DNA of 55,514 nucleotides from Actinomycetota bacterium (GTDB lineage Bacteria > Actinomycetota > Acidimicrobiia > Acidimicrobiales > Microtrichaceae). Where the stretch lies: assembly GCA_016870275.1 (NCBI GenBank), contig VGBZ01000014.1, forward strand, positions 1-55,514, in the 5' to 3' direction. Each line of letters starts with the position of its first letter. Within the stretch, counting starts at the first letter, position 1. A model generated the notes under the pieces. It saw nothing but the letters and a program-made list of their open reading frames with translations, was not told the origin of the DNA and did not search any database. Position numbers and translations under genes: made by a program. This document shows positions 46,154-51,045 of the stretch, piece by piece.

Positions 46154-46930
46154 TCAGCGGCGATCGTCGAGCGCGGGGAACGCGGCGCGCCAGTCGGCGG
46201 CCGCGGTCGGCTCGACCGTCGCCACCAGGACGGTCTCGTCGGTTCCGGCCTCGGCGACCACGTCGCCGAGCGGGTCGACGACGGCGGATCGTCCGCCGAG
46301 CGTGGTGCCGCACTGGGTTCCCACGCCGTTGCACGCGACGACCCACGACTGGTCCTCGATCGCCCGGGCCCGGAGCAGCACCCGCCAGTGCTCGATCCGT
46401 CGATCGGGCCAGCCCGACGCGAGCAGGAAGGCGGTCGCGCCGTGGTCCACGAGGCCACGGAAGTGCTCGGGGAACCGCAGGTCGTAGCAGGTGGCCAGGC
46501 CGGTCGGACCGAGCGGGGTGTCCACGCAGACCAGGTCGTCGCCGGCGGTCATGACCTCGGGCTCGCCCCCGTCGAATCCGAAGAGGTGGCGTTTGCGGTA
46601 CGTGGCGGCGACCGTCCCGTCGGGCGCGACGACGACCGAGGTGTTGAAGGTGAACCCGCCGTCCTGTTCGGGGACCGAGCCGGCGTGGATCCACGTGGCG
46701 GTGTCACGGGCGACCGACCGGAACGTCTCGATCAGCTCACCGTTGACGGGTTGGGCCAGGCGCCCCGATCCGTGGACGTCGAACGCGCCGGCCAGCCACA
46801 GCTCGGGGAGCACGACCAGGTCGGCGGACGCCGCTGCATCCCAGGTGAGCGCCACCGCACGGCGCACGCGTTCCTGGGGCGGCTCGGTCTCCTCCGAGGC
46901 GAGCTGCACCAGCGCCACGTCGACGGTCAC
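46154..46930 (-). CDS. Carbon-nitrogen hydrolase (nitrilase superfamily)
   Basis: Amidase-type hydrolase of 258 residues. The catalytic triad is visible: Glu in LPELWLAG, Lys in YRKRHLFG, Cys in TCYDLRFPE. Length and GEPEVMTAGDD place it among omega-amidase/NIT-like branch members, which act on small amides. GTG start at 46930, 88 nt after the photolyase-like gene. The substrate is unknown. Confidence 0.88.
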   Translation of the reverse strand: MTVDVALVQLASEETEPPQERVRRAVALTWDAAASADLVVLPELWLAGAFDVHGSGRLAQPVNGELIETFRSVARDTATWIHAGSVPEQDGGFTFNTSVVVAPDGTVAATYRKRHLFGFDGGEPEVMTAGDDLVCVDTPLGPTGLATCYDLRFPEHFRGLVDHGATAFLLASGWPDRRIEHWRVLLRARAIEDQSWVVACNGVGTQCGTTLGGRSAVVDPLGDVVAEAGTDETVLVATVEPTAAADWRAAFPALDDRR

Positions 46931-47018: not shown

Positions 47019-48365
47019 TCAGTCGGGGATCCGGGCGTGGCGCCGCCACGCGCTGAAGGACCGGTCGCGTCCGTCGTGCGGTGGGACCAACCACGGCCAC
47101 GGGTGCAGCTCGACGATCGCAGCGCCCAGCTGGGTCCGCCGCCGTCGAGCGCCGGGCACGGGAGCGGCCGTGGTCGCGAGCGCCCGACCGGCGAGCACCA
47201 CGACCGGGTCGCCCAGATGCACCTCGACCGTCCGACGAGTGGCCAGATCCGCCAGGCACTCCGTCAGGAAGACGAGTCGGAGCGGCGCGAGCCGAAGGTG
47301 ACGCAGCAGCGGCTCGTCGAACACGAAGGTGACGGGCAGGTCCGGGTGGGCCCGGAGCGCCGGGTCATCGTCGCCGAGGGACTCTGCGGTGATCCACACG
47401 GCGGTCGGCGCCCGATCGCTGTCGACGGACGGATCGGTCGGCCCGCCCCAGACCCTGCCGGGGAGCTCGCCGGCACTCGGCGACCCGGGGGCACCCGCGG
47501 CGGGTGGGGGATCACGGAACGGCGGTGGATCAGCAATCGGGCAGTCGGTCTCGAGCGGGCACGAGTCGCATCGACCCGGCGCGCGTCCTTCCACCTGCCG
47601 GCGGGTGAACACGTAGGCCTCGGGTCGTCCGACGCCGCTCGTCCACGCCCACCCCAGACCGTTGGCGGCGCGTGACCCGTCGATCAGTCGCCGGAACATC
47701 CACTCCTCGCCGTCGGACCAGAGCCGGTCGTGGCGACCGGACCACTGCGCGGCGAGCCACATGCGCGCCTGGTTGGTGATCCAACCATCCTGTTCGAGCT
47801 CGTCGAACTGGTCGGCGAGACAGGCCATCTCGTGTTCGACGGTGGTCCACCCGGGTTCGGCGGAACCGTCAGGGTTGCTCGGCGCACCTGACGCGCCTGT
47901 CGGCCCGTGGCGGACGCCAGCGTTCCGGACGAAACCGTGTCGGGCGTAACGGTGGCGGGCGTACTCCTGCCAGAGCAGCTCGTCGCGGAACTTGGCCACG
48001 TCCTCCGGGGGTCCGTCCGCCACGTGGTCCCAGACCCGGCGCAGCGTGAGCAGCCCGTGACGGATCCACGGTGAGAGACCGGACGCCCCCCGCCGTGCGG
48101 CGGGCCACACCTCGTTGCGGTCGGCTCGGTAGCCACGCACGTCGAACGCGGCGAGCGCAGCGTCGGCCGCGCGCTGGCCGCCGCGGTGGCGGCCCGCGGA
48201 CGGGGCCACTCCGTCGGCGGTCCTGGACAGGTCGCTGAGTTCCGACAGGTGGGCGGCGACCCAGCACGCCTCGTCGCCGACGGTCGGGGTCGGCAACGAG
48301 CTCGGCGACGCGGGCACATCGGTCACGGCGTGGAGAACGTGACGGCCGGCCGCGACATTCCACAC
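47019..48365 (-). CDS. Photolyase/cryptochrome-like protein with reversed domain order and CxxC-type cysteine motif
   Basis: 448 residues. Residues 60-255 match a photolyase FAD-binding domain: LSPWIRHGLL, KFRDELLWQEYARH, GWITNQARMWLAAQW, and RRLIDGSRAANGLGWAWTSGVG. The photolyase alpha/beta (antenna) domain, normally N-terminal, follows instead at 320-405: AVWITAESLGDDDPALRA, VTFVFDEPLL, RLVFLTECLADL, VEVHLGDPVVVLAG. Between them is RCDSCPLETDCPI. Cys182, Cys266, Cys269 and Cys275 are spaced like the 4Fe-4S ligands of FeS bacterial photolyases. It probably binds FAD and may be a DNA repair or light-signalling protein. The start is uncertain (GTG 48365, or 48326/48317). It lies 23 nt behind zwf. 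Confidence 0.75.
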   Translation of the reverse strand: MWNVAAGRHVLHAVTDVPASPSSLPTPTVGDEACWVAAHLSELSDLSRTADGVAPSAGRHRGGQRAADAALAAFDVRGYRADRNEVWPAARRGASGLSPWIRHGLLTLRRVWDHVADGPPEDVAKFRDELLWQEYARHRYARHGFVRNAGVRHGPTGASGAPSNPDGSAEPGWTTVEHEMACLADQFDELEQDGWITNQARMWLAAQWSGRHDRLWSDGEEWMFRRLIDGSRAANGLGWAWTSGVGRPEAYVFTRRQVEGRAPGRCDSCPLETDCPIADPPPFRDPPPAAGAPGSPSAGELPGRVWGGPTDPSVDSDRAPTAVWITAESLGDDDPALRAHPDLPVTFVFDEPLLRHLRLAPLRLVFLTECLADLATRRTVEVHLGDPVVVLAGRALATTAAPVPGARRRRTQLGAAIVELHPWPWLVPPHDGRDRSFSAWRRHARIPD

Positions 48366-48388: not shown

Positions 48389-49858
48389 TCAGTCCTCGCG
48401 CCAGGCCCGTTCGAACGGGAGCCGCCACGCGTTCGGTGCGATGAGTTGGTGGACGGCGTTCGGTCCCCAGGAGCCGGGGGCGTACGGGCGCACCGGCGGC
48501 GGGTTGGCGATGAGTGGATCGGAGACCTCCCATAGCCGTTCGATCCCGTCGCTCGTGGTGAACAGCGTGTGGTCCCCGCACATGGCGTCGTGGATGAGTC
48601 GCTCGTACGCCTCGAGCACGTCGGCGTGCTCGTGGAGCGCGAACTGCAGGCTCTGCTTGTCCAGGCGCATGCCCGGACCGGGCCGCTTGCCGTAGAACGA
48701 CAGCGACAGCTTGGACGCGTCAGCCAGGTCGAACGTCAGGTGGTCGGGGCCGTGGGCACCGACCCCGGACCCGGCGGGGAACATGCTCCTGGGTGGTTCG
48801 CAGAACGCGATCGAGATGATTCGCGAGCCCTCGCCCATGCGCTTGCCGGTTCGCAGGTAGAAGGGGACGCCGGCCCAGCGCCAGTTGTCGATCTCGCAGC
48901 GCAGCGCGATGAACGTCTCGGTGTCTGAGTCGGGGCTCACCCCCGGCTCGTCGAGGTACCCGTGGTACTGGCCCCGGACCACGTCGGCCGGTTGGATCGG
49001 CTGCATCGACCGGAAGACCTTTTGCTTCTCCTCGCTGATCGACAGCGGCGTGAAGTCGGTCGGTGGCTCCATCGCCATGAACGCGAGGACCTGGAACAGG
49101 TGGGTGACGACCATGTCGCGGAAGGCGCCGGTGGCCTCGTAGAACGACGCCCGCTGTCCGATCGACAGCGTCTCGGGGACGTCGATCTGCACGTGATCGA
49201 TGTGCTGACGGTTCCAGATGGGTTCGAACAGTCCGTTCGCGAACCGGAACGCCAGGATGTTGAGTGCAGCCTCCTTGCCCAGGAAGTGGTCGATGCGGAA
49301 GATCTGGGACTCGTCGAACGTGGCGTGCAGCGCGGCGTTGAGGTGACGGGCGGAGCGGAGGTCGGTCCCGAACGGCTTCTCCATGATGATCCTTGACCGT
49401 TCCACCAGCCCGGCCCGGGCGATCAGGTCCACCACGTCGAGCGCAGCGCTCGGCGGCACGCTCAGGTAGTGCAGGACCCGGCAGTCGGCGCCCGACTCGC
49501 CACTCAGGTCCGCACCAAGTTCCCGGGTCCGATCGGCGAGCGCGTCCGGGCCGTCGGTGATCGAGGCGTACTCGAGGTGGTCCAGGAACTCCGCGAGCGA
49601 TTCGTCGTCGGCGACCTGTCGGCCGAACTCCACGACGGCCTCACCGGCGACCTTCTGGAACTCCTCTGCGCCGAGGTGGCCCAGGTCGGCGCCGAGGACC
49701 CGGTAGTCACGGAGCAGGCCGGCACGGGCCAGGTGGTAGAGGCCGGGGAGGAGCTTGCGCCGGGCCAGATCGCCCGTCGCGCCGAAGAGGACCACGACGT
49801 GGGGGTCGACGGGCGGGATCAGGCGGGACCCGGTGTCGGGGGGATCGTGTTCGCGCAC
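48389..49858 (-). CDS. zwf: Glucose-6-phosphate 1-dehydrogenase
   Basis: First oxidative step of the pentose phosphate pathway; reduces NADP+. Rossmann motif [14 protein letters not shown], active site RIDHFLGKE with the catalytic His, EKPFGTDL, and the C-terminal FYLRTGKRM and substrate regions. I chose the GTG at 49858 (489 residues), which matches family length and leaves about 120 nt for divergent promoters with the neighbouring dehydrogenase; an in-frame GTG at 49969 would leave only 8 nt. Confidence 0.92.
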
Positions 49859-49977
49859 CCGGCGGAGCCTCGCGTCGCTCCGTGTCGGGCGGATGACGAC
49901 ACTGCGACACGCACGTTGCGGCCCGGCCGGGTCGTCCATCGGTCGACCAGCGGGCGCAGGGTCTGTCACGCTGGGGT

Positions 49978-51045
49978 GTGGACGTTGCGATCATCGGTGC
50001 CGCCGGAGCCTGCGGGCGTCAGCTCGCGGCGCAGGTGCTGCAACGTGGCACGGTCCCGCCGGGCGGTCGCCTGCAACTGGTCGGCCACCGAGGTGGACCG
50101 AGTGAGACCGAGCTGTGGGGGCTGCGGTCGGACCTGGAGGACGCGTTCGGTGACTGGGCCCCGGATGTCGAACTCGTCCTGGACCCCGACGCGGTCGACG
50201 CCGACCTGGTGGTCGTGCTCGCGGGGCAGACCGTCTCACTGGATCCGAACGCCCCGGTGGATCGTGCCGAGCTGGCCCGGGTGAACGCGGCGCTGTTCCA
50301 CACGTACGCCGTCGCGCTCGCCCGACGCCCCGATCCGCCGATCGTCGTGGTGCAGTCGAACCCGGTCGAGCTCGGCGTGCGGATCTTCGCCGAGCACCTC
50401 CCGCGGGAGCGGGTGATCGGGGCGGGCGCGTGGTCGGACACGCTCCGCTTCCGTCGCGAGCTCGCCGAGGACCTGGGACTCCCGCGTCGCGACGTGGCCG
50501 CCGTCACGCTGGGCGAACACGGCGACCGACTCGTGCCCGTCTGGTCGGCCGTCCGGGCACGCGGTGTGCCCGCCGACGCCGTGGACCGAGCGATCGCCGC
50601 GGCGCGGGGCGACCGACAGCTGGTCGACCTGCCGGACGAGATCGCAACCGCGCGCACCGAGGTGGTCGACCTGATCCGCAGTGGGGCGGTGGCCGAGGCG
50701 TGGGCCCGGGTCGGGTCGCTCCCGGCGGACCTGCGGGTCGCCGTCAAGCCGTTCTTCACCAACTTCACCTCCGGCCGGACCACCGAGGCCGTCACGGCGC
50801 ACGCCGTGGCCGACCTGCTCGAGGCGTTCGTGGACGGCGTGTGGCGAGCGTTCCCCGCCCAGGTGTGGGTCCGGGGCGACTGGAACGATCTGCACGCCGC
50901 TATCGCCATCCCGGTGATCGTCGGTCAGAACGGTTGGACCCCGGTGGTGGACCTGGCGCTCCACGACGACGAGCTGGACGCACTGCAGCGCGCCGATGCG
51001 GTCCTCGCGGCTCGCCAGGAGGAGTTGGTCGCTACGCTTGAGTGA
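49978..51045 (+). CDS. Lactate/malate dehydrogenase family protein
   Basis: NAD(P)-dependent 2-hydroxyacid dehydrogenase of 355 residues, longer than the usual 310-330. [11 protein letters not shown] is the dinucleotide motif; [10 protein letters not shown] carries the conserved Asn; [10 protein letters not shown] holds the substrate Arg; GEHGD has the catalytic His. The residue after GEHGD is Arg rather than Ser. The N-terminal motif G-A-A-G is like malate dehydrogenases. GTG start at 49978, divergent from zwf. Confidence 0.8.

Follow-up and report, generated by a model that had tools for sequence, protein, structure and literature searches.

The locus raises the question of whether a photolyase-like gene whose FAD (flavin adenine dinucleotide)-binding half comes first and whose alpha/beta domain comes last encodes a circularly permuted photolyase, and what such a protein would do. 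The gene occupies nt 47019–48365 on the minus strand of the window, a 55,514-nt stretch of contig VGBZ01000014.1 (GCA_016870275.1) from a member of the Microtrichaceae (Acidimicrobiales, Actinomycetota), and encodes 448 residues with near full-length relatives. The initial annotation gave these coordinates correctly; the minus strand is our correction. Sequence profiles and structure models together indicate that the reversed domain order is real. The protein probably belongs to the iron-sulphur (FeS) branch of the inverted-order NewPHL/SPL photolyases and would repair cyclobutane pyrimidine dimers (CPDs) beside an ordinary photolyase. It is a member of a known, little-studied kind, as inverted photolyases and the FeS proteins Phr4/5/6 were published before. 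The first description of a little-described family was fair, but the presence of NewPHL/SPL and Phr4–6 in print lowers the novelty.

Order of the two halves

The FAD-binding helical half covers residues 61–253 (nt 47607–48185, minus strand) and is recognised by Pfam, phmmer, hhalign and structure matches. Pfam FAD_binding_7 (PF03441) scores above its cut-off at residues 188–253 (E 7.9e-8), and residues 61–247 match the class I photolyases 1tez and 1owl in a phmmer search of the PDB. This best sequence match bears out the class I-like character first ascribed to the FAD part. The NCBIfam photolyase models give partial matches only, far below their cut-offs. The cry-DASH model TIGR02765 reaches 33.8 bits against a cut-off of 317.05, so the protein is not a cry-DASH, and PF04244 (DPRP) gives no match at E up to 10.

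The alpha/beta domain, of the photolyase N-terminal type, is placed last, at residues ~320–442 (nt 47040–47408, minus strand). It draws no Pfam match in the window protein; of 74 relatives, 27 match PF00875 weakly (best E 0.0065), and a profile search of the PDB gave a best E of 0.6, too weak to decide. The separate search of the two domains with hidden Markov models that had been suggested at the outset thus found PF03441 for the FAD half and nothing in Pfam for the last domain, for which profile-profile comparison was positive. In that comparison, slices of the family alignment (residues 20–285 and 308–448) were each aligned by hhalign to both halves of 14 ordinary photolyases whose source genomes belong to the same order or family. 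The FAD half matched the ordinary FAD half at 99.7% (P 3e-26, 175 columns), and the last domain matched the ordinary N-terminal domain at 95.8% (P 8e-9, 107 columns). The crossed pairs, serving as controls, gave 0.1% and 0.4%. Between the halves lies a linker, residues 277–319 (nt 47409–47537, minus strand), variable in length and sequence in the alignments and of low predicted local distance difference test score (pLDDT) at residues 291–300.

The full-length AlphaFold2 model, built with 81 sequences, has a mean pLDDT of 88.6 and a pTM of 0.90. It aligns to solved photolyases across the FAD half, with TMq at most 0.39 among the 50 matches listed, a value that fits the expectation if one domain alone can be matched in order. 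A second-look structure alignment (VIA) was made as well. Among the 50 matches listed there for the full model, only 4k03 and the unrelated 7pub extend past residue 300, and the top one is 5kcm, of PhrB type (Z 16.2, root-mean-square deviation (rmsd) 3.6, 237 residues). At rank 12, amid photolyases, stands 7pub_Ff from a Trypanosoma mitoribosome assembly intermediate, aligned mainly with the FAD half (Z 13.7); helical proteins can reach such structural scores through arrangement alone.

Residues 308–448, modelled separately, reach a pLDDT of 92.9. The alpha/beta fold proposed for residues 320–405 holds, with its end corrected to about residue 442. In the second look, which covered Foldseek's first 1000 chains, all 50 entries listed for this isolated domain are photolyases or cryptochromes, aligned between chain residues 1 and 172 (Z 8.0 to 10.0, 127–138 residues, rmsd 2.9–3.6). 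Foldseek alone returned nothing for it at E ≤0.001; its best match, at 3.2e-3, is a photolyase, and an unrelated chain stands third. The identity of the last domain is carried by the profile-profile comparison and by the second-look alignment of the isolated-domain model, which has the fold of a photolyase/cryptochrome N-terminal domain; structure prediction was among the checks suggested at the outset. With the full model lying on the FAD half of photolyases and the isolated C-terminal domain on their N-terminal domain, in accord with the sequence profiles, the proposal of a circular permutation, FAD half first and alpha/beta domain last, is upheld.

Four cysteines and the FAD site

Cys182 (nt 47820–47822, minus strand) is the first proposed FeS ligand. 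The others, Cys266, Cys269 and Cys275, lie in a C-x2-C-x5-C-P motif closed by Pro276 (nt 47538–47570, minus strand). Their positions are as first stated, with a spacing of 84/3/6, and a survey of homologs found them invariant in 14/14 proteins of the order, one of which is cut off by the end of its contig near residue 337, and in 81/81 rows of a wider-family alignment whose loci are the best 80 of 533 relatives in the named collection. Four PhrB-type proteins (PF04244, FeS-BCP), one of them from the window's own genome, served as comparison rows. All four cysteines coincide between the FAD-half profile and the PhrB-type profile (hhalign 95.0%, P 4e-8, 170 columns, a score to which the cysteines themselves contribute); the FeS ligands of PhrB we take to be C350/C438/C441/C454. 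Cys182 stands 16 residues ahead of Asn198 (nt 47772–47774, minus strand), the equivalent of N349 of the Anacystis photolyase in the phmmer alignment, and in the PhrB-type rows the first Cys is likewise 16 residues from a His. Passages of PMC9426592 give C169, C254, C257 and C263 for Synechococcus Phr4, a spacing of 85/3/6 against 84/3/6 in the window protein.

A 4Fe-4S cluster on C182/C266/C269/C275 is likely, judged from sequence, and the earlier claim of an FeS-containing protein holds only as far as four invariant cysteines on PhrB-type positions can carry it. The cysteines are known from their sequence positions, and they might instead bind zinc or be structural. We hold this to be very improbable given the coincidence with the four FeS-BCP cysteines, the 16-residue spacing from Cys to Asn or His and the ACP/DCP context; moreover, FAD, an FeS cluster and CPD repair were reportedly found for an SPL of Rhodococcus fascians (Xu 2021).

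Residues were mapped onto the Anacystis enzyme through the phmmer alignment to the PDB. E283, W286, N349, M353 and W392 correspond to E129, W132, N198, M202 and W241, which presumably take part in CPD binding. They are retained in 80, 81, 81, 71 and 80 of the 81 rows, respectively, the other 10 rows having Leu at position 202. The four PhrB-type rows carry Val or Ile at the position of E129 and His at that of N198; where 4/4 FeS-BCP rows have a His-His pair, the window protein has Thr-Asn. Because E129 and N198 are class I-like while the PhrB-type rows have Val/Ile and His, we consider CPD repair more likely than the (6-4) role suggested for Phr4–6.

Alternatively, the window protein could be a (6-4) photolyase, which the PhrB-type FeS enzymes are and Phr4/Phr5/Phr6 were proposed to be. 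We consider this unlikely, though it has several points in its favour. The FeS cysteines are common to the PhrB-type enzymes, and Leu at position 202 occurs in the PhrB-type rows as well as in the 10 family rows, so this position cannot tell CPD and (6-4) enzymes apart. Against a (6-4) enzyme stand E129 and the fully invariant Asn198, the closeness of the FAD half to class I enzymes and the separate PhrB-type gene in the window's genome; an FeS member of the SPLs is also said to be a CPD photolyase. Passages of PMC9649867 present SPLs as enzymes of CPD repair. The authors of PMC9426592, in turn, argue for a (6-4) role of Phr4–6, with survival data in favour, loss of phr4/phr5 being more harmful after UV-C than after UV-B.

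The electron-chain residues W390 and W367 have W239 and W216 as their equivalents, each present in 81/81 rows. At the FAD itself, PMC9426592 lists 13 contact positions, of which the window protein shares nine, with position 346 taken as Trp, as in the phmmer alignment, where the paper prints T346. The four changes are T240 to A94, W280 to F126, R287 to Q133 (nt 47967–47969, minus strand) and D382 to S231 (nt 47673–47675, minus strand). Arg is kept at the R287 position in the comparison rows from Deinococcus (4), alphaproteobacteria (5), Persicobacter (1) and ordinary photolyases (15), and Asp stands at the D382 position in those 25 rows except for one ordinary row with Glu. The four PhrB-type rows retain the Arg, not the Asp.

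The last domain differs from an ordinary antenna domain. In 13/14 ordinary photolyases the D-x-x-P antenna motif has its Asp, which helps hold 8-hydroxy-5-deazaflavin (8-HDF). At the aligned residue, A401, 81/81 family rows have Ala, Thr or Ser, and the stretch ahead of it is about seven residues shorter than in ordinary photolyases (hhalign). The window's genome has a match to CofH (FO synthase) above cut-off, and 8-HDF could therefore be available. Antenna function is nevertheless doubtful because the usual Asp is absent throughout the family; of the antenna-like domain first described, it is the fold that stands.

Carriers, relatives and known systems

Within the order, 14/61 genomes including the window's have a match at E <1e-80; in 12 of the 13 other carriers the gene is in a single frame, and in the 13th it is broken over two contig ends. 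Of 396 genomes sampled across the phylum, 26 including the window's have a near full-length match free of inner stops. The remaining 10 of the 36 positive genomes match the FAD half only, as ordinary photolyases do. A relative is encoded by 533 stretches of the named collection. The best 80 are 49–57% identical, with a single open frame in 80/80 loci, and by their titles come mostly from Actinomycetota, with a few others or unnamed; the sources include the cultivated Mycolicibacterium, Phycicoccus, Aeromicrobium, Ornithinimicrobium and Pseudonocardia. Contigs titled Bifidobacterium breve (L064, L068, L083, L111, L112, L118, L133) carry copies 52–56% identical, and their labels look like mislabelled environmental bins. 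A viral origin was considered and rejected: 31 viral stretches matched a pattern and none encodes a relative. The window's genome has at least three members of the superfamily in the form of the reversed-order gene, an ordinary photolyase (C11) and a PhrB-type PF04244 gene (C22).

Relatives also occur in other phyla. Three Deinococcus plasmids encode a fused FAD-FeS-alpha/beta protein, and that of AJ005 is 30% identical over residues 58–424. The plasmid of Deinococcus sp. QL22 (L144:2896-4187) carries instead two separate genes with a 4-base overlap, one for a 257-residue FAD-FeS half with all four cysteines and one for a 173-residue alpha/beta half annotated as hypothetical. The Deinococcus last domain matches ordinary photolyases at 98.1% and the window's family at 99.1% (hhalign). 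The two-gene and fused Deinococcus forms parallel the split phr4/phr5 and the fused phr6 of picocyanobacteria.

Five alphaproteobacterial rows are called NewPHL-like by resemblance, none being characterised. The CxxC...C motif, present in 81/81 rows of the window's family, occurs in 0/5 of them. One, from Peteryoungia (L152:1393-2613), has a Cys at the first FeS ligand position, which may have survived from a lost cluster or be there by chance. Their C-terminal domain scores 0.1–0.2% against the window's or ordinary domains in hhalign, which with five sequences only is no evidence against homology, and 33% against the Deinococcus last domain. In two alphaproteobacteria (L142:4167-5516, L152:72-1343) the NewPHL-like gene adjoins a gene for an AarF/UbiB-type kinase in the same orientation, preceding it in one case and following it in the other; in two others (L153, L154) it adjoins a DUF3429 gene. 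A plasmid of Persicobacter sp. JZB09 (L156, Bacteroidota) encodes a FAD-first photolyase-like protein lacking the cysteines. Its C-terminal part, as a single sequence, scores 0.6–0.9% against the photolyase domains tried (hhalign), and the protein may represent a further inverted branch.

In a FAD-half tree built from 41 rows and 177 columns without the CxxC...C tail, with an unsettled bootstrap, the window's family forms a single clade (100/100) with a long stem. Every FAD-first protein falls on one side of a branch, with poor support (68/24). Rooted with the PhrB type, two losses would suffice for the cysteine pattern; this was read by eye from the best tree with small sampling, and we do not press it.

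Several published systems share features with the window protein. NewPHL and SPL are names for the inverted or 'short' photolyases in passages of PMC13274461, PMC9649867, PMC9498864 and PMC9178010, and inverted topology is common, at second hand, to NewPHL and the window's family. Close by published description are Phr4/Phr5/Phr6 of Synechococcus and Cyanobium, with the FAD half first, the photolyase domain last and four cysteines. In PMC9426592 this reversed order comes with FeS cysteines, a (6-4) activity is guessed, phr4/phr5 is split into two frames in marine Synechococcus and phr6 is fused; the cyanobacterial pair differs in its two frames from the single frame of the window's family.

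NewPHL are reported to be single-strand CPD photolyases (Emmerich 2020). The SPL class, as reported for its Rhodococcus fascians member and compared by description, is actinobacterial with a class I/III-type FAD half and four cysteines. It is described as being without the alpha/beta domain, whereas the window's family has that domain at the other end. FeS-BCP proteins of the PhrB and CryB kind have the four FeS cysteines at matching positions and provide the best second-look structure match; they differ from the window protein in their classical order, their His-His pair and their DPRP N-terminal domain. The class I CPD photolyases (Anacystis, Thermus, E. coli) are nearest in FAD-half sequence and share the substrate-site residues, yet they have the classical order and the antenna Asp, and the ordinary rows lack the FeS cysteines, the window protein being opposite in each. 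A literature search, with most subscription papers outside its reach, found no further paper on an actinobacterial member.

What is new is the breadth of a mostly actinobacterial FeS branch, the finding that its alpha/beta domain is permuted, not missing, and the two-gene form in Deinococcus sp. QL22, which gives Deinococcus both one-gene and two-gene forms as reported for cyanobacteria. The position of the domain bears on SPLs, some with FeS, which passages of PMC9649867 and PMC9498864 propose as ancestral to all photolyases and cryptochromes and say to be without it. One could suppose that photolyases arose from two genes, for an FeS-FAD protein and an alpha/beta protein, joined in both orders, and that the FeS inverted lineage preserves a state older than the classical order, not a late permutation. 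The lineage has fused forms (Actinomycetota, Deinococcus) and two-gene forms (QL22, and reported for marine Synechococcus); we consider the idea improbable at present.

Proposed role and surroundings of the gene

As an inverted CPD photolyase, the window protein would bind FAD in its leading, helical half. In blue light the FAD, once reduced, would pass an electron to a CPD bound through residues that include E129, W132, N198, M202 and W241, splitting the dimer. The putative 4Fe-4S cluster would cap the FAD half at its end, a place taken in class I enzymes by another C-terminal segment. The last-placed alpha/beta domain would pack against the FAD half, serving as a structural lid and not as an effective antenna. 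The enzyme would act alongside the ordinary photolyase of its genome, its targets probably being single-stranded DNA or DNA otherwise poorly served. In favour of this reading, an ordinary photolyase, counted as a DASH-model match at E up to 1e-40, is present in 25/26 carrier genomes against 87/370 others; the Fisher P of 5e-14 is optimistic as the genomes are related and shared ancestry is ignored.

Several observations, along with the Leu at position 202 and the UV-C data, weigh against this role. W314, the third Trp of the usual electron chain, has no clear equivalent in the window protein. Q133 and S231 replace R287 and D382 in 81/81 rows, so FAD binding may differ. A cry-DASH above cut-off occurs in 0/396 genomes, a sample that bears neither way on a substitution for DASH. 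The single-strand preference is borrowed by analogy from NewPHL, whose link to the window's family in the tree is weak.

The two altered FAD-site positions, the long stem of the clade and the other photolyase in nearly every carrier would also suit a cryptochrome-like light sensor that has lost DNA repair. We give this little credence, since E129, W132, N198 and W241 are retained in 80–81 of 81 rows; among the few neighbours viewed, three of them without a Pfam match, there is no sensory gene. The cultivated carriers offer sources for comparing CPD with (6-4) activity and for the role of the FeS cluster.

The gene has its GTG start codon at nt 48365 and its stop codon at nt 47019–47021. The start is uncertain because the homology of relatives begins only at about residue 22 in the alignment of 14 proteins from the order and the AlphaFold2 pLDDT is below 50 at residues 1–12; the true start may be a downstream GTG or TTG.

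As to a conserved operon, a comparison of the window's neighbours with six adjoining frames in five named loci, three of the six without a Pfam match and not amounting to a survey, gave no shared neighbour. In the window, a carbon-nitrogen hydrolase gene lies at nt 46154–46930 (minus strand), and a glucose-6-phosphate dehydrogenase gene at nt 48389–49969 (minus strand) is 23 bases from the start of the photolyase-like gene. A malate/lactate dehydrogenase-like gene at nt 49978–51045 (plus strand) and a DinB-like gene are also among the neighbours.
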